43,659 bases of DNA from Nocardioides sp. (GTDB lineage: Bacteria; Actinomycetota; Actinomycetes; Propionibacteriales; Nocardioidaceae), in the NCBI GenBank assembly GCA_025964985.1, contig JAOPXU010000082.1, positions 1-43,659 of the forward strand, in the 5' to 3' direction. Below the pieces are notes generated by a model. That model worked only from the letters and a program-made list of their open reading frames with translations, had not been told where the DNA came from and ran no database searches. The position numbers and the translations under genes are program-made. This document shows positions 30,319 to 35,560 of this stretch, piece after piece (positions within the stretch are counted from its first letter, which is position 1; every line of letters begins with the position of its first letter).

Positions 30319-31662
30319 ATGAGCGTCCGCTCGGCCATGGCCGCACTCACCGCCGCCGTCACCACCGTGGTGCTGCTGGCGGTGCCGGCGCCCGCGCCGG
30401 CCACCACCGCCGCCGTCAGCCAGCCCGCGGCAGCCGCCCGCGCCCAGACCTTCCACCAGTACGCCGGCACCCGCGCGCAGCTGGCACGCATGGAGCGGGG
30501 CACGGTCATCAAGACGCGCACGGTCCGCTACTCGCTGCAGGGCCTGCCGGTGCCGATCCGCGTCGTGCAGCTGCTCTACCGCACCACCGACCAGCTCGGC
30601 CGCCCGACGACCAACGTCACCTCGGTCCTGCAGCCGCCGGTCGCCCTGCGCCCCGACAAGGTGGTCGCCTACGGCTCGTTCTACGACTCGCTCAACCCCT
30701 TCGACGGCCCGTCGTACGCCGTCAACGGGGGTCGCAGCCCGGGCACCAACATCGTGCACGCCGAGCTCGCGTTCGTCGCGCCGCTGCTGCTCGCTGGCTC
30801 GCCGGTGGTCGTGGCCGACACCCAGGGCCGCACCGCCGACTTCGCCGCGGGCCCGGAGTACGGGCGCACCACGCTCGACTCGCTGCGCGCCGCGCTCCGC
30901 TCGCCGGAGGCCGGCCTCGCGCCGCGTCCCGACATCGCGCTGCTGGGCTACTCCGGCGGCGCGATCGCCACCGGCTGGGCGGCGGCCCTCGCGCCGTCGT
31001 ACGCACCGGGGATCGACCGGCTGCTCGTCGGTGCGGCCGAGGGCGGCGTGCTCGTGGCGCCCGACAACAACCTGGGCTACGTCTCCGGGTCGCAGGTGTG
31101 GGCCGGCGTGCTGGCCATGGCGCTGATCGGGGCGGCGCGGGCCTTCGAGCTCGACCTCGACCCCTACCTCAACGACTACGGCCGGCGGCTGTTCGCCCGG
31201 CTCGACAAGGCCTCGATCTCCGAGGTGCTCGGGGCCTACCCGGGGCTGACCTGGCAGCAGATCGCCCGGCCGCGCTACCGCGACCCGCAGTCGGTGCGCG
31301 TCTACGTCCAGGCGGTCAACAAGCTCAACCTCGGCCAGCGCCCGAGCCCGACCGTGCCGATGTACATCGGCCAGGGCACCGGCGGCGACCTCGAGGGCAC
31401 GCCCGGCACCAAGCCCGGCATCGGTGCGGGCGACGGCGTGATGATCGCCGGCGACGTGCGGACCCTGGCGCGCACGTACTGCGCCGCCGGCACCCGGGTG
31501 CAGTACCGGCAGTACCCGCTGAGCCACTTCACCTCGGTGCCGCTGTTCCTGCCCGACGCGATCGCCTGGGTCGAGGCGCGCTTCGCCGGGCTGCCGGCGC
31601 CGTCGTCGTGCGGGAGCATCCCGCGCGGCAACTCGCTGGCCCCGGTGCCCGTCCCGCGCTGA
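30319..31662 (+). CDS. Secreted LIP-family lipase/esterase
   Basis: A 447-residue secreted alpha/beta hydrolase. Residues 1 to ~42 are a Sec signal peptide (basic start, hydrophobic core TAAVTTVVLLAVPA, Ala-rich cleavage region). The nucleophile motif GYSGG lies at ~210-215, and the sequence follows the secretory lipase (LIP) family: YGSFYDSLNP, VVVADTQGR, GYSGGAIATGWAA and a late conserved His in YPLSHFTS. These enzymes hydrolyse lipids or esters outside the cell. ATG 30319 has GGAGGT 3 nt upstream. Two late Cys residues could form a disulfide. It ends in a strong hairpin shared with the convergent gene. Confidence 0.9.
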   Translation: MSVRSAMAALTAAVTTVVLLAVPAPAPATTAAVSQPAAAARAQTFHQYAGTRAQLARMERGTVIKTRTVRYSLQGLPVPIRVVQLLYRTTDQLGRPTTNVTSVLQPPVALRPDKVVAYGSFYDSLNPFDGPSYAVNGGRSPGTNIVHAELAFVAPLLLAGSPVVVADTQGRTADFAAGPEYGRTTLDSLRAALRSPEAGLAPRPDIALLGYSGGAIATGWAAALAPSYAPGIDRLLVGAAEGGVLVAPDNNLGYVSGSQVWAGVLAMALIGAARAFELDLDPYLNDYGRRLFARLDKASISEVLGAYPGLTWQQIARPRYRDPQSVRVYVQAVNKLNLGQRPSPTVPMYIGQGTGGDLEGTPGTKPGIGAGDGVMIAGDVRTLARTYCAAGTRVQYRQYPLSHFTSVPLFLPDAIAWVEARFAGLPAPSSCGSIPRGNSLAPVPVPR

Positions 31663-31684
31663 CCCGCCGGCAGACCGCGAAAAG

Positions 31685-31725
31685 CCGGAACCGGCAGCCC
31701 CCACAGGGTGCTGCCGGCTCCGGCG
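31685..31725. terminator. Bidirectional stem-loop terminator
   Basis: A 15-bp stem with a single mismatch (GCCGGAACCGGCAGC pairing with GCTGCCGGCTCCGGC) encloses a ~11-nt loop. It lies between the lipase stop and the stop of the convergent secreted-protein gene. An A-rich run precedes it, giving a short U-run for the minus-strand transcript. Confidence 0.75.
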
Positions 31726-31737
31726 GGGGGACTGGGG

Positions 31738-32115
31738 TCAGGCCTGGGCGGCCTGGCACTCCTCGAGACGCTCCTGGGCCTTCGCGAGACGCTGCTGCTG
31801 GGCGCCCTTGGCCTCCTTAGCCTCGGCCTTCTCGGCCTTGGCCGTGCGCAGCGCCTTGCGGGCGGCGTTGCGCTCCTGGGCGGTGTCGGCGGCGGCGGCG
31901 CGGTCCTTGGCCTTCTCGACCTTGGCCTGCTTGCGCTCGAAGACGGCGGTCAGGCGGGTGAGGGCGTCCTCGGCGCGATCGACCTGGGTCTGCTGCTGGG
32001 CGCAGGGTGCCTTCTCGGGCGCGTCCGCGGCCACGGCGGGCGCGACGGCACCGAGGGAGCCGAAGGTCAGGGTGAGTCCGGCGAGGACGCCGGCAGCGCG
32101 GGTGGCGGTGTGCAT
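31738..32115 (-). CDS. Secreted two-cysteine helical-hairpin protein
   Basis: A 125-residue protein with a clear Sec signal peptide (MHTATRAAGVLAGLTLTFGS, with cleavage after AVAA near residue 30). The mature part is almost entirely Ala/Lys/Glu/Gln helix, consistent with an antiparallel coiled-coil hairpin, and has just two cysteines, Cys38 and Cys120, at the two ends of the hairpin where they could form a clasping disulfide. I do not know a family. AGGAG lies 6 nt before the ATG. Its promoter carries TGTAAC-N17-GGAGGT, identical in layout to the promoter of the ECF sigma operon directly upstream, so it is probably a target of that sigma factor. Confidence 0.8.
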   Translation of the reverse strand: MHTATRAAGVLAGLTLTFGSLGAVAPAVAADAPEKAPCAQQQTQVDRAEDALTRLTAVFERKQAKVEKAKDRAAAADTAQERNAARKALRTAKAEKAEAKEAKGAQQQRLAKAQERLEECQAAQA

Positions 32116-32163
32116 GGGGGACTCCTGGAGACGTGGGACGGACCCCGACGGGGCTTGTCCTCC

Positions 32164-32192
32164 ACCTCCGGCGGCGGGGACGTGGTGTTACA
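32164..32192 (-). promoter_or_regulatory. Candidate ECF promoter of the secreted helical-hairpin gene
   Basis: On the minus strand, TGTAAC (complement of 32187-32192) is followed after exactly 17 nt by GGAGGT (complement of 32164-32169). The same two blocks with the same spacing precede the sigma operon. The predicted start point leaves a ~40-nt leader. GGAGGT is too far from the ATG to be its ribosome binding site. Confidence 0.65.
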
Positions 32193-32205
32193 CCCGCCAC
32201 GTCCC
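32177..32205. repeat. Perfect 9-bp inverted repeat over the -35 region
   Basis: GGGACGTGG and CCACGTCCC flank an 11-nt loop that contains the TGTAAC block of the ECF-type promoter. It also lies 8 bases beyond the stop of the ECF sigma gene, so it could be that gene's terminator, an operator over the promoter, or both. Confidence 0.65.
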
Positions 32206-32212
32206 GGTCCAG

Positions 32213-32788
32213 TCAGGTGGGGCTGAGGTCGCCCTCGCGCTCGGCCGCCAGCCGCTGCAGGCGGCGCAGCCCGCGGTGGCGGGCCACCCGGACGGCGACC
32301 GGGCTGATGCCCAGCGCCTCGGCGGCCCCGTGGTTGTCGAGGCCCAGGCCGTCGACGAGCCCGAGGACGTCGCGCTCTCGCGCGGGCAGCAGCTCGAGCG
32401 TCTGCTTCACCCAGAACTGCTGGTCGACCAGCAGCGTCGGGTCGGGCACGACGTCGAGGTGCTCGCCGACCTCGCCGACCTCACCGGGCGACGTGCGCCG
32501 GCGGTCGGAGCGCTCCTTGGCGCGCATGCTGGTCTTGCGGGCGATGCCGAACAGCCAGCCGGCGAAGTCGGACGACGTCCCGTGGAAGTCGGCGATCTTG
32601 GAGGCGGCGACCACCCACGCGTCGGCGGCGATGTCGTCGGCGGTCATCGCGCTGTCGCCGGTCGGGCGGAGGCCCAGCCACGCGACGAGACGCCCGGCGT
32701 GAGCTCGGTAGAGCTCTCGCCAGGCGTCGGGATCGCCGTCCTTCGCGCGGGTGACGACGTCGTCGTCGTCGTCGTACCTCTCAGCCAT
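32213..32788 (-). CDS. ECF-type RNA polymerase sigma factor
   Basis: A 191-residue protein with only sigma regions 2 and 4. Region 2 includes GDPDAWRELYRAHAGRLVAW, DDIAADAWVVAASKIADF and WLFGIARKTSMRAKERS; region 4 includes LLPARERDVLGL and a helix-turn-helix (NHGAAEALGISPVAVRVARH). The linker is short. ATG 32788 lies inside the end of the upstream membrane-protein gene (8-base overlap), and a run of aspartates follows the start; GTG 32794 is an alternative. The paired membrane protein is the likely anti-sigma or sensor, although gene order (membrane protein first) is the reverse of the usual. The operon promoter has the TGTAAC-N17-GGAGGT motif, suggesting autoregulation. Confidence 0.92.
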   Translation of the reverse strand: MAERYDDDDDVVTRAKDGDPDAWRELYRAHAGRLVAWLGLRPTGDSAMTADDIAADAWVVAASKIADFHGTSSDFAGWLFGIARKTSMRAKERSDRRRTSPGEVGEVGEHLDVVPDPTLLVDQQFWVKQTLELLPARERDVLGLVDGLGLDNHGAAEALGISPVAVRVARHRGLRRLQRLAAEREGDLSPT

Positions 32789-33494
32789 GGGCACCCGGGC
32801 CGCTGCCTGCCGGGAGAGTCAGGAGCAGGGGACCCCTCGGGGGCTTCGGGTCCTGGGGAGGCTTGCCGCTGCCGGCCGGCTTGTCCTTCTTCGGCTTCTT
32901 CGGCTTGACGGGCTTCGACGGCTTGGCGGGCTTGACCGGCTTCGTGGGCTTGCCCGGGCGGGCGGGCTTGCCGGGACGGACGGGCTTGCCGGGCTTGACC
33001 GGCTTGCCGGGCTCCGCGGGCCTGCCCGGCTTCACGGGCTTCACGGGCTTGCCGGGCCGCACGGGCTCGGCCGGCTTCGCGGGCTTGCCCGGCTGGGCCG
33101 GGGTCGCGGGGGTGGCCGGGACGCCGGGGCCACCGGGCCGGGCCGGGACCGCAGGAACGGTCGGCGGCGTGCTGGCGCCGGAGCCGGGGTTGGTCGTGAC
33201 GGCGGTGTCCTCGGCGACCTGGGCCGTCGGGTCGTCGTCGGACGGGCCCGCCCCGGCCTCCTCGACCAGCGGGCTGGGGACGCCGGGCACCTCGATCGCA
33301 CCGGTGGCCCAGGCCGCGCCGACCGAGAGGAACAGCGCGCTGGCGCCGGCGGCGATGAACGCCGTGAAGCGGGTCCAGAACGGGCTGCGCGTCGGGGTGC
33401 TGGCCCGGGCGAGGGCGGACAGCCGGTGCACGAGGTCGTCGGTCGGCTCGACGGACGGCACCTCGAGGCGGAGGTCGCTCGCGTTCTGGATCAT
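32781..33494 (-). CDS. Single-pass membrane protein with PGKP-repeat stalk, possible anti-sigma/sensor
   Basis: A 237-residue protein. Residues 1 to ~42 are cytoplasmic and helical (DDLVHRLSALARAS), ~43-67 form one membrane helix (FTAFIAAGASALFLSVGAAW), ~68-133 are acidic then Pro/Thr-rich, and ~134-206 are a repeat of PGKP, PVKP and PAKP units giving a stiff, strongly basic stalk; the end is PPRGPLLLTLPAGSG. The layout suggests a protein that reaches through the cell wall and reads its state, with the short N-terminal segment holding the sigma factor. No known anti-sigma domain is evident, so this role is inference from the 8-base overlap with the ECF sigma gene. It opens the operon, behind a TGTAAC-N17-GGAGGT promoter. 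Confidence 0.85.
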   Translation of the reverse strand: MIQNASDLRLEVPSVEPTDDLVHRLSALARASTPTRSPFWTRFTAFIAAGASALFLSVGAAWATGAIEVPGVPSPLVEEAGAGPSDDDPTAQVAEDTAVTTNPGSGASTPPTVPAVPARPGGPGVPATPATPAQPGKPAKPAEPVRPGKPVKPVKPGRPAEPGKPVKPGKPVRPGKPARPGKPTKPVKPAKPSKPVKPKKPKKDKPAGSGKPPQDPKPPRGPLLLTLPAGSGPGAHG

Positions 33495-33551
33495 GGGTGG
33501 TGCGTCCTCGTCGGTCAGGGGCGGCCGGGTGCCGGGTCAGTTCTGCGCGAC

Positions 33552-33580
33552 ACCTCCCGCGGGCCCCCGCCGACGTTACA
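33552..33580 (-). promoter_or_regulatory. Candidate autoregulated ECF promoter of the sigma operon
   Basis: On the minus strand, TGTAAC (complement of 33575-33580) is followed by exactly 17 nt and then GGAGGT (complement of 33552-33557). The transcript would start near 33545 and have a ~50-nt leader before ATG 33494. The same motif occurs at 32164-32192. Confidence 0.65.
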
Positions 33581-33617
33581 TCCAGACCGGCCCGCAGGCG
33601 ACCGATCAGGCGGGCGA

Positions 33618-34139
33618 CTAGGCCAGCGAGCGCAGGTGGGTGACGAACCCGGGATTGGTGAGCGCCCACGGTCCGCGCGCCGCCCGCACCAGCGCCAGGG
33701 CGTCGTCGACGTCGTGGCCGGTGCGCACCAGGGCCAGGGCGACCACCAGGCCCGACCGGTTGAGGCCACCGGAGCAGCGCACCAGCACCGTCCGACCCGC
33801 GGCCACGGCGGCGGCCACCGTCGCGGCCAGCCCGTCGAGCCGCTCGGCCGTCAGCGCGTCGACGCCGGCGTCGGCGAGGCGGGCGACGACGTGCTCGACG
33901 CCGTCACGCGGCCCGTAGCCGCGGCGGGTCGCCAGGCTCACCACGAGGTCGAACTCGTCGTCGACCACGCAGGCCTTCGCCGACTGCGAGCGGACGTCGT
34001 GCCCGCCCTGCCACAGCCCCGGCACCACCTCGTCCCACGGGCTCGCGCACAAGGGCATCCGCGTCGCCCGGCCGGTCCCGTCGCAGGCGGCGCAGGTGGC
34101 GACCAGCGCCGGCTCGGCGTAGCAGGAGTGGCACAGCAT
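33618..34139 (-). CDS. Zinc-ribbon dual-specificity-type protein phosphatase
   Basis: A 173-residue protein. The N-terminus has two CxxC pairs (Cys3/Cys6 and Cys16/Cys19) that could hold zinc. The rest resembles a small cysteine-based phosphatase: a VVPGLWQGGHD strand-turn, then the P-loop CSGGLNR with Cys122 and Arg128 (CX5R), followed by a helix (SGLVVALALVR). The general-acid Asp is not obvious by eye. Substrates could be phosphotyrosine/phosphoserine proteins or small molecules. TAGTCT ends 6 nt before the ATG with no Shine-Dalgarno sequence, pointing to a leaderless mRNA. It diverges from the GlcD-like oxidase across 62 bp. Confidence 0.82.
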   Translation of the reverse strand: MLCHSCYAEPALVATCAACDGTGRATRMPLCASPWDEVVPGLWQGGHDVRSQSAKACVVDDEFDLVVSLATRRGYGPRDGVEHVVARLADAGVDALTAERLDGLAATVAAAVAAGRTVLVRCSGGLNRSGLVVALALVRTGHDVDDALALVRAARGPWALTNPGFVTHLRSLA

Positions 34140-34201
34140 CGCCCGAGACTACGAGCACGAGAGGACGCCCCGGGGCCGGCGCGTCGTGCTTTGCTGAGCC
34201 C

Positions 34202-35560
34202 GTGCTCGACAACGCCGTCGCCCAGCTCGTCGCGTCCCTGCCCGAGGGGGTCGTCACGACCGACCCCGACGTCGTCGAGCCCTACCGCTGGGACTGGTCG
34301 CACGACGTCTCCGCCGGCACCCCGGTCGCGGTGGTCCGCGCCGAGGACGCCGCCCAGGTGCAGACCGCCGTGCGCTGGGCCGCCGAGCACCGGGTGCCCG
34401 TCGTGCCGCGGGGCGCGGGCAGCGGGCTGTCGGGCGGCTCGTCGGCCGTCGACGGCGGCATCGTCCTGAGCCTGGAGCGGATGCGCGCGATCGACATCGA
34501 CACCGAGTGCCGCGTCGCCGTCGTCCAGCCCGGTGCGCTCAACATCGAGGTCAAGGCGGCGGCCGCCGAGCACGGCCTCTGGTACCCGCCCGACCCCTCG
34601 TCGTACGAGATCTGCTCGATCGGCGGCAACGTCGCGACCAACGCGGGCGGGCTGTGCTGCGTCAAGTACGGCGTCACCACCGACTACGTCCTCGGCCTCG
34701 ACGTCGTGCTCGCCGACGGCACCCTGGTCACCCTCGGCGGCAAGCGCGTCAAGGACGTCGCCGGGCTCTCGCTGCTCAAGCTGTTCGTCGGCAGCGAGGG
34801 CACGCTCGGCGTCGTCACCTCGGCGACCCTGCGGCTGGTGCCGGCCCAGGCCGCGCGCTCTACCCTCGTCGCCTCCTTCGCCTCGGTGGCCGCTGCCGCC
34901 GACGCCGTCGTCGAGGTCGGCCGCACGCTGCGGCCCTCGATGATGGAGCTGATGGACCAGGCCTCGATCAACGCCGTCGAGGACTTCAAGCCGATGGGCC
35001 TCGACCGCGCCACCGCCGCGCTGCTCGTCGCCCAGTCCGACGCCCCGGGCGCCGCCCGCGCCGAGGAGGTCGCCGTCATGCAGGCCGCCTGCGAGGCCGC
35101 CGGCGGCACCGTCTTCGTCACCGACGACCCCGACGAGGGCGAGATGTTCGTGGCCGCCCGCCGGATGGCGTTCCCCGCCATCGAGGCCCGCGGCTCGCTG
35201 CTGCTCGAGGACGTCGGAGTACCGGTCCCGCTGCTGCCCGAGCTGCTCGCCCGGATCGCCGAGATCGCTCGCGAGCGCGACGTCGAGATCCCCGTCGTCG
35301 CCCATGCCGGCGACGGCAACACCCACCCGATCATCGTCTACACGCCCGAGTCCGAGGACCGAGCGCGGCTCGCCTTCGCCGACGTGATGGCCGCCGCCAT
35401 CGCCCTCGGCGGCACCATCACCGGCGAGCACGGCGTCGGCCGCGCCAAGGCCGCCGCCCTGCCCGACCAGCTCGGCCCCGACGTCATGGAGCTCAACCGA
35501 CGCGTCAAGCGCGCCCTCGACCCCGCCGGCATCCTCAACCCGGGAGCCTCGGGCTTGTAG
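34202..35560 (+). CDS. GlcD-like FAD-binding oxidase (glycolate/D-lactate dehydrogenase type)
   Basis: A 452-residue FAD-linked oxidoreductase of the vanillyl-alcohol oxidase fold. The FAD domain has PRGAGSGLSGGS (~75-86), WYPPDPSSYEICSIGGNVAT and FVGSEGTLGVVT; the C-terminal domain has VVAHAGDGNTHP and TGEHGVGRAK, typical of the GlcD/D-lactate dehydrogenase group with its metal-binding histidines. It probably oxidises a 2-hydroxy acid such as glycolate or D-lactate. No GlcE or iron-sulfur GlcF partner is adjacent. GTG 34202 is the first start; there is no good ribosome binding site, so it may be leaderless. Confidence 0.92.
   Translation: MLDNAVAQLVASLPEGVVTTDPDVVEPYRWDWSHDVSAGTPVAVVRAEDAAQVQTAVRWAAEHRVPVVPRGAGSGLSGGSSAVDGGIVLSLERMRAIDIDTECRVAVVQPGALNIEVKAAAAEHGLWYPPDPSSYEICSIGGNVATNAGGLCCVKYGVTTDYVLGLDVVLADGTLVTLGGKRVKDVAGLSLLKLFVGSEGTLGVVTSATLRLVPAQAARSTLVASFASVAAAADAVVEVGRTLRPSMMELMDQASINAVEDFKPMGLDRATAALLVAQSDAPGAARAEEVAVMQAACEAAGGTVFVTDDPDEGEMFVAARRMAFPAIEARGSLLLEDVGVPVPLLPELLARIAEIARERDVEIPVVAHAGDGNTHPIIVYTPESEDRARLAFADVMAAAIALGGTITGEHGVGRAKAAALPDQLGPDVMELNRRVKRALDPAGILNPGASGL

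Follow-up and report, generated by a model that had tools for sequence, protein, structure and literature searches.

A conserved two-block GTAAC element as the putative autoregulated promoter of an ECF sigma factor in Nocardioides, with a –10 triplet that varies alongside a sigma residue

The window analysed here, a stretch of 43,659 nucleotides from Nocardioides sp. (GenBank assembly GCA_025964985.1, contig JAOPXU010000082.1, positions 1 to 43,659), carries on its minus strand two copies of the element TGTAAC-N17-GGAGGT, one before an operon encoding a membrane protein and an extracytoplasmic function (ECF) sigma factor and the other before the gene of a small, secreted-looking helical-hairpin protein. 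By comparing related genomes, we found that the element is conserved at fixed spacing, that it occurs together with this type of sigma gene, and that its 3' block covaries with one residue of the sigma factor. We regard it as highly likely that the sigma factor encoded at 32213-32794 uses both sites as promoters and would thus control its own expression; transcription from these sites and its dependence on sigma are what we infer from these comparisons. The two sites very probably belong to one stress-type switch that activates its own genes together with a small secreted protein.

33552..33580, minus strand: predicted promoter 1, TGTAAC-N17-GGAGGT, before the membrane-protein/sigma operon; a homologous element stands at orthologous operons
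32164..32192, minus strand: predicted promoter 2, TGTAAC-N17-GGAGGT, before the secreted-hairpin gene; a homologous element stands at the hairpin genes of other genomes
32781..33494, minus strand: membrane-protein gene, 237 residues, candidate anti-sigma factor; its N-terminal segment is conserved in orthologous operons
32213..32794, minus strand: ECF sigma factor gene, 193 residues from GTG 32794; Pfam Sigma70_r2 and r4_2 above cut-off
31738..32115, minus strand: small protein gene, 125 residues, predicted secreted helical hairpin, from its sequence and a single-sequence AlphaFold2 model

Both sites lie exactly where the preliminary description had placed them, at 33580-33552 and 32192-32164. 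The two-block pattern had 0 matches in 100 dinucleotide shuffles of the window, and TGTAAC-N15-19-GGAGGT has two matches in the whole assembly (4,475,541 bases in 426 contigs, 89.7% complete), both in the window, versus none for the reversed pattern. Counting both strands of the window, TGTAAC occurs twice and GGAGGT 37 times. When up to two mismatches were allowed, the assembly yielded 80 matches versus 52 for the reversed control, so that the loosened matches are mostly noise and the relaxed scan is uninformative. The distance to the ATG, first given as 50-60 nucleotides for both sites, is 57 nucleotides for promoter 1 (ATG 33494) and falls to 48 for promoter 2 (ATG 32115). The accompanying argument that GGAGGT is not the ribosome binding site stands, in the sense that it is not needed as such, because purine-rich stretches (GAGGA, AGGAG; by eye) are found near both ATGs. 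A scan of 31500-34300 for sigma-70 promoters and terminators returned none.

Sigma factors of the window type are present, at an E-value of 1e-28 or better, in 53 of 118 Nocardioides genomes (108 of 215 in a larger set) and, at 1e-22, in 5 of 26 genera in a sample of 245 genomes of the family; the 1e-28 limit that defines the 53 sigma-bearing genomes was set by hand. Many orthologous operons are preceded by GTAAC-N16-GACAGGT or GTAAC-N16-GACATGT, and the element of the window stands in the same register, TGTAAC-N17-GGAGGT being equivalent to TGTAAC-N16-xGGAGGT. Across the 118 genomes, GTAAC-N14-18-GACAKGT (K, G or T) gave 99 matches versus 31 for the reversed pattern, and a spacing of 16 accounts for 71 of the 85 matches in the sigma-bearing genomes versus 4 of the 14 in the other 65. 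Counted by genome, a match to GTAAC-N16-GACAKGT occurs in 46 of the 53 sigma-bearing genomes versus 3 of the 65 without this sigma factor (Fisher p 1.5e-21, which serves only as a guide because the genomes are related). The seven sigma-bearing genomes without an N16 match include the window genome and genomes G043 and G099, whose spellings differ. The base following GTAAC is G or A in 67 of the 71 N16 matches of sigma-bearing genomes.

Conservation before orthologous sigma operons, on which the preliminary description had staked its reading of an autoregulated ECF promoter, was checked across relatives and found at fixed spacing: a two-block motif, typical of autoregulated ECFs, was detected for 108 of 135 sigma genes, either at the gene or divergent from it. 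The operon promoter rule used here demands C or G, then A, at the second and third bases of the triplet that lies at N17 and is blind to the first base; it leaves out genome G078 (ACG, residue S at the sigma position discussed below). Sigma matches spanning less than about 110 query residues or shorter than 120 amino acids were left out of the set, as were those identical over 120 amino acids. One locus (L235) duplicates another (L033), both having an identical promoter string and contigs of equal length (5,367,947), which reduces the second set of scored operons from 45 to 44 and their total from 108 to 107.

Tandem membrane-protein/sigma pairs are found at six loci (L036, L039, L043, L045, L046 and L049), where the second copy has a GTAAC-N16 element of its own that reads TACATG, not GACAGG, in 6 of 6 cases. 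In more distant orthologues (L052, L054, L056, L058, L062) the sigma gene and the membrane-protein gene diverge, with the element oriented towards the latter, not the former. In another branch (L014, L015, L016, L019, L025, L085 and L096), the element upstream of the sigma genes is followed first by the gene of a small secreted-looking protein with a motif like NKNGHEV..HAA.GQARAAEARA.

The second site of the window is also matched in relatives. Homologues of the hairpin gene number 45, in 42 of the 118 genomes, and a strict rule (GTAAC-N16-G[AG][CG]A no more than about 150 nucleotides upstream) detects the element at 24 of 33 in sigma-bearing genomes versus 0 of 12 elsewhere; in shuffled controls the rule was satisfied by a mean of 0.05, and at most 1, of the 45. 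Several of the element-bearing hairpin genes are on a contig other than that of the sigma gene (for example in G014, G034, G081, G083 and G086), so linkage does not explain the motif. The conserved fixed-spacing element at orthologous operons, its co-occurrence with sigma and the same element before hairpin genes on other contigs together lend strong support to the autoregulated ECF promoter first proposed.

The regulon was initially drawn from the two promoters of the window; a DUF6458 gene located on another contig is a further candidate, which brings the targets to at least three. In the window genome GTAAC-N15-19-GGAGGW (W, A or T) has six matches (two for the reversed control), three of them at N17, namely both window sites and C111:9385, which is 108 nucleotides before a DUF6458 membrane-protein gene (PF20059). 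Genome G043 has five matches (control, three), and again three at N17: at the operon, at the hairpin gene and at C4:49859, 81 nucleotides before a DUF6458 gene. In seven other genomes there were 11 matches in all, one of them at N17. DUF6458 as a general target was rejected: out of 73 DUF6458-like matches, 33 upstream regions were compared, and GTAAC-N17-[AG][CG]A was found at 5 of 20 in sigma-bearing genomes versus 0 of 13 in others, so that only a subgroup of these genes would be in the regulon. No GTAAC occurs within 230 nucleotides upstream of the second DUF6458 gene of the window genome (G000:C308:6541-6771, L309). Other genes that follow the element encode small secreted proteins or are glycosyltransferase-like as judged by sequence only (G078, G109, G112, G283, G317).

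The triplet at N17 differs between lineages, reading ACA in most genomes, GCA in a sister group, and GGA only in the window genome (G000) and its closest relative, G043. The literal GGAGGT of the preliminary description is thus not the –10 block of the family; it is a derived form in an ACA/GCA/GGA series, confined to these two genomes. In both of them GGA is found at the operon, the hairpin gene and the DUF6458 gene, while GCA is found at the operon and the hairpin gene in G057, G099, G248 and G283; G283 and G317 carry it at the operon as well as at a glycosyltransferase-like gene. The spelling tracks identity to the window sigma factor, which is 77% for G043, 64-68% for the GCA group, and 63% or less for the full-length matches of other groups. 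One residue of the sigma factor separates the same groups.

32522..32524, minus strand: codon of sigma residue R91 (193-residue numbering), aligned by hand with M. tuberculosis SigH N92 and E. coli SigE N84

Residue 91 is R with GGA, G, S or A with GCA, and N or T, plus one S, with AC-type triplets. Stated as a rule for the first triplet base (N or T with A; R, G, S or A with another base), the relation holds in all 108 scored operons (63 of 63 in the first set and 45 of 45 further loci). In the passage of PMC6411747 that deals with this contact, M. tuberculosis SigH N92 touches the –11 base pair of the –10 element, which suggests that GGA occupies –11/–10/–9. In this register, which derives from the residue-base covariation and the text on the SigH structure, GGA is predicted at 33557-33555 with a +1 near 33546 for promoter 1, and at 32169-32167 with a +1 near 32158 for promoter 2. 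A change in the specificity loop was considered as the cause of the new –10 and rejected, the loop not being distinctive in the GGA group; this loop reads –9 in SigH, and its lack of distinction is in keeping with the nearly constant third base A. Overall, the comparison of relatives suggests that evolution altered the spelling of the sigma factor and that of its promoters in concert.

A second ECF family, which we call the sigma2 family, was found in 21 of the 118 genomes at 1e-57 (limit set by hand) and bears on the hairpin gene. The element GTAAC-N17-CGCTG stands before 8 of the 9 hairpin genes in genomes that have the sigma2 family and lack the window-type sigma factor, and before 0 of the other 36. 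Three hairpin genes in genomes with neither sigma factor have no element under the rules used; the 12 hairpin genes in genomes without the window-type sigma factor therefore comprise 8 with another –10 and 4 with no element by these rules. The same GTAAC-N17-CGCTG directly follows the sigma2-family gene at 11 of 14 loci read (L185-L190, L192-L195, L200), where the next gene may encode the anti-sigma factor of that family. A genus scan for the narrower GTAAC-N13-19-GACGCTG was noisy and placed the element at the end of the sigma2-family gene in several further genomes. Because the CGCTG element replaces the window-type element in genomes that have only the sigma2 family of the two, the hairpin gene seems to be a shared target whose sigma factor is set by its –10.

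On balance, we lean towards a combined claim that joins these two sets of observations: that a natural, regulon-wide recoding of the –10 took place in one Nocardioides lineage, the residue facing its first base passing from Asn/Thr through Gly/Ser to Arg in step with targets that passed from ACA through GCA to GGA, and that the hairpin gene, under one or the other of two ECF families with GTAAC in common and a different –10 each, changed sigma factor by swapping only the –10. The recoding refers to three identified targets, which occupy two separate locations, both in the window genome and in its closest relative.

Several observations weigh against these interpretations. Under the operon promoter rule, 27 of the 135 sigma genes have no promoter, some of which may be explained by short flanks and divergent genes. 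Similarly, 9 of the 33 hairpin genes in sigma-bearing genomes fail the strict rule: the window's own copy (C rather than G at N16), that of G078 (GACGAGT) and seven with nothing recognisable. The window genome also has one GTAAC-N17-GCAGGT, the spelling of the sister group (C189:4008-4035), and G057, which belongs to the GCA group, has one unexplained GTAAC-N16-GACAGGT. The covariation is based on no more than two independent changes on the tree and cannot be claimed as significant; the new non-A cases, G317 and G309, bring no additional independent change. G078 (residue S, outside the rule) mixes spellings: its hairpin/sigma cluster is preceded by ACG, a glycosyltransferase-like gene by ACA and a DUF6458 gene by GCA. 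For the change from C to G at the second base of the triplet, no residue matches apart from E94, which is found in the same two genomes. Finally, the candidate anti-sigma factor has no recognisable homologue: it matched no known anti-sigma family, and searches of Pfam, NCBIfam and, with its N-terminus as a profile, the PDB gave no usable match.

Among other explanations, the one that fares best, which we nevertheless judge improbable, is that the element serves as promoter for a different ECF sigma factor that shares the GTAAC –35, for instance an orthologue of SigD or ShbA, the neighbouring sigma gene being just one of its targets. GTAAC[A/G] is indeed the published –35 of SigD, and the sigma2 family provides a second Nocardioides example of GTAAC used with another –10; however, the presence of the motif follows the window-type sigma factor (46 of 53 versus 3 of 65 genomes), the 12 hairpin genes in genomes lacking it have a different –10 (8) or no element (4), and the –10 spelling follows a residue of this very protein. 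It is very unlikely that the two blocks form the operator of a DNA-binding regulator, as sites of two blocks at fixed spacing can also do, since by inspection the blocks are not inverted copies of each other, the 5' block is a known ECF –35, the spacing and the distance to the start codon suit a promoter, and the 3' block varies with a sigma2-domain residue. Chance, or a recent duplication of a short stretch, would fit the presence of only two exact copies in the genome and can be dismissed: the 17-nucleotide spacers are unlike each other, so the pair is not a recent copy, and this reading is contradicted by the N16 co-occurrence and hairpin-gene counts and by the homologous elements that other genomes carry at both genes, whether or not these share a contig.

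A model based on our preferred reading, two promoters of the window's own sigma factor, would start with a surface signal that most likely releases sigma from the membrane protein. The sigma4 domain would then read GTAAC at –35 and the sigma2 domain the triplet 17 nucleotides further on, and RNA polymerase carrying this sigma factor would transcribe the sigma operon itself along with the genes of a few envelope or secreted proteins. Promoter 1 would drive the sigma operon and with it the membrane protein, most likely the anti-sigma factor, giving feedback, and promoter 2 the secreted helical-hairpin protein; the C111 site, of the same spelling, probably drives the DUF6458 membrane protein, which would make this a small cell-surface regulon. 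At the three identified targets of the window lineage, the –10 triplet would have been respelled while the residue predicted to touch its first base changed as well.

The sigma factor of the window has only sigma70 regions 2 and 4, as expected of the ECF class (PF04542, 27.5 bits, cut-off 24; PF08281, 34.6 bits, cut-off 25.7), and scores 51.5 bits against TIGR02937, sigma70-ECF (cut-off 42.9). By sequence, it best matches the ECF sigma factor 9isn and the region-4 chain 3vep of M. tuberculosis SigD (E 5.1e-7) among PDB entries. ATG 32788 is a more likely start than GTG 32794, and the start of the gene overlaps the stop of the upstream gene by 8 nucleotides. The product of that upstream gene has a conserved N-terminal segment, a hydrophobic stretch that probably spans the membrane, and a Pro/Lys-rich C-terminal part; it is a conserved partner, encoded either in the sigma operon or divergent from the sigma gene, and a candidate anti-sigma factor of the neighbouring sigma factor. 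The hairpin protein has a signal-peptide-like start, judged by sequence, and a Cys near each end of its mature part. Its AlphaFold2 model has helices at 38-75 and 79-124, with a predicted local distance difference test score of at least 90 at 84 of 125 residues. Pfam and NCBIfam gave nothing usable for this protein, and a fold search with the model gave no match at E 0.001 or better, the top ones being for the most part coiled-coil or helical proteins. Directly upstream of the operon promoter, 33618-34139 on the minus strand encodes a dual-specificity-phosphatase-like protein (PF00782, above cut-off), which as far as seen is outside the regulon.

An uncharacterised ECF system of a large soil genus gains a defined promoter and a predicted core target set. 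The ACA/GCA/GGA series, with its matching sigma residues, amounts to a natural experiment on how the specificities of a sigma factor and its promoters change jointly, and it bears on how close relatives become insulated from each other. In a literature search of one collection, mostly of titles, we recognised no description of this Nocardioides motif.

SigD, known from Corynebacterium glutamicum and Mycobacterium, belongs to the ECF sigma factors, has a cell-envelope regulon and is accompanied by RsdA. The –35 of our motif is already known as that of SigD, given as GTAAC[A/G] in passages of PMC6338062 and PMC11588781, and G or A follows GTAAC here as well; the spacing is comparable (N17-18 in one place and N18-20 in another of PMC11588781), and region 4 of the window sigma factor matches 3vep. 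In contrast, the SigD –10 is GAT, whereas the triplet at N17 is ACA, GCA or GGA here, as found with rules that searched for forms of this type, which nearly all scored operons fit and for which 27 of the 135 genes have none; read one base earlier, the common triplet is GAC, one letter from GAT. The candidate anti-sigma gene also differs, being upstream of or divergent from sigma and matching no known anti-sigma family. Because GAT is not found in the register used, we do not file the window sigma factor as SigD.

ShbA (NF007230) is the best NCBIfam match of the window sigma factor (7e-20), but at 71.6 bits versus a curated cut-off of 209, and the system described here has a membrane-protein partner gene. 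In vitro, according to part of PMC9205884, only shbA and hrdB were found as targets of ShbA; such autoregulation with a very small regulon resembles what we propose. ECF283, whose representative in the relevant part of PMC8999054 comes from Nocardioides sp. Root190 and is listed under phosphorylation, shares the genus and is a lead only. A Ser/Thr protein-kinase-like gene lies near sigma at L064 and L065, two of the most distant orthologue loci, and recalls the ECF groups linked to phosphorylation; the other loci compared did not show a simple kinase pattern. Lastly, residues of the sigma2 and sigma4 domains are known to code for promoter bases at autoregulated ECF promoters (as summarised in passages of PMC8103513 and PMC11588781), and a sigma2-domain residue that follows a –10 base at such promoters fits this code. 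Unlike in that general code, the relation is traced here across a single genus and, within a genome, at more than one target, and the resulting series of –10 changes is unusually clear.
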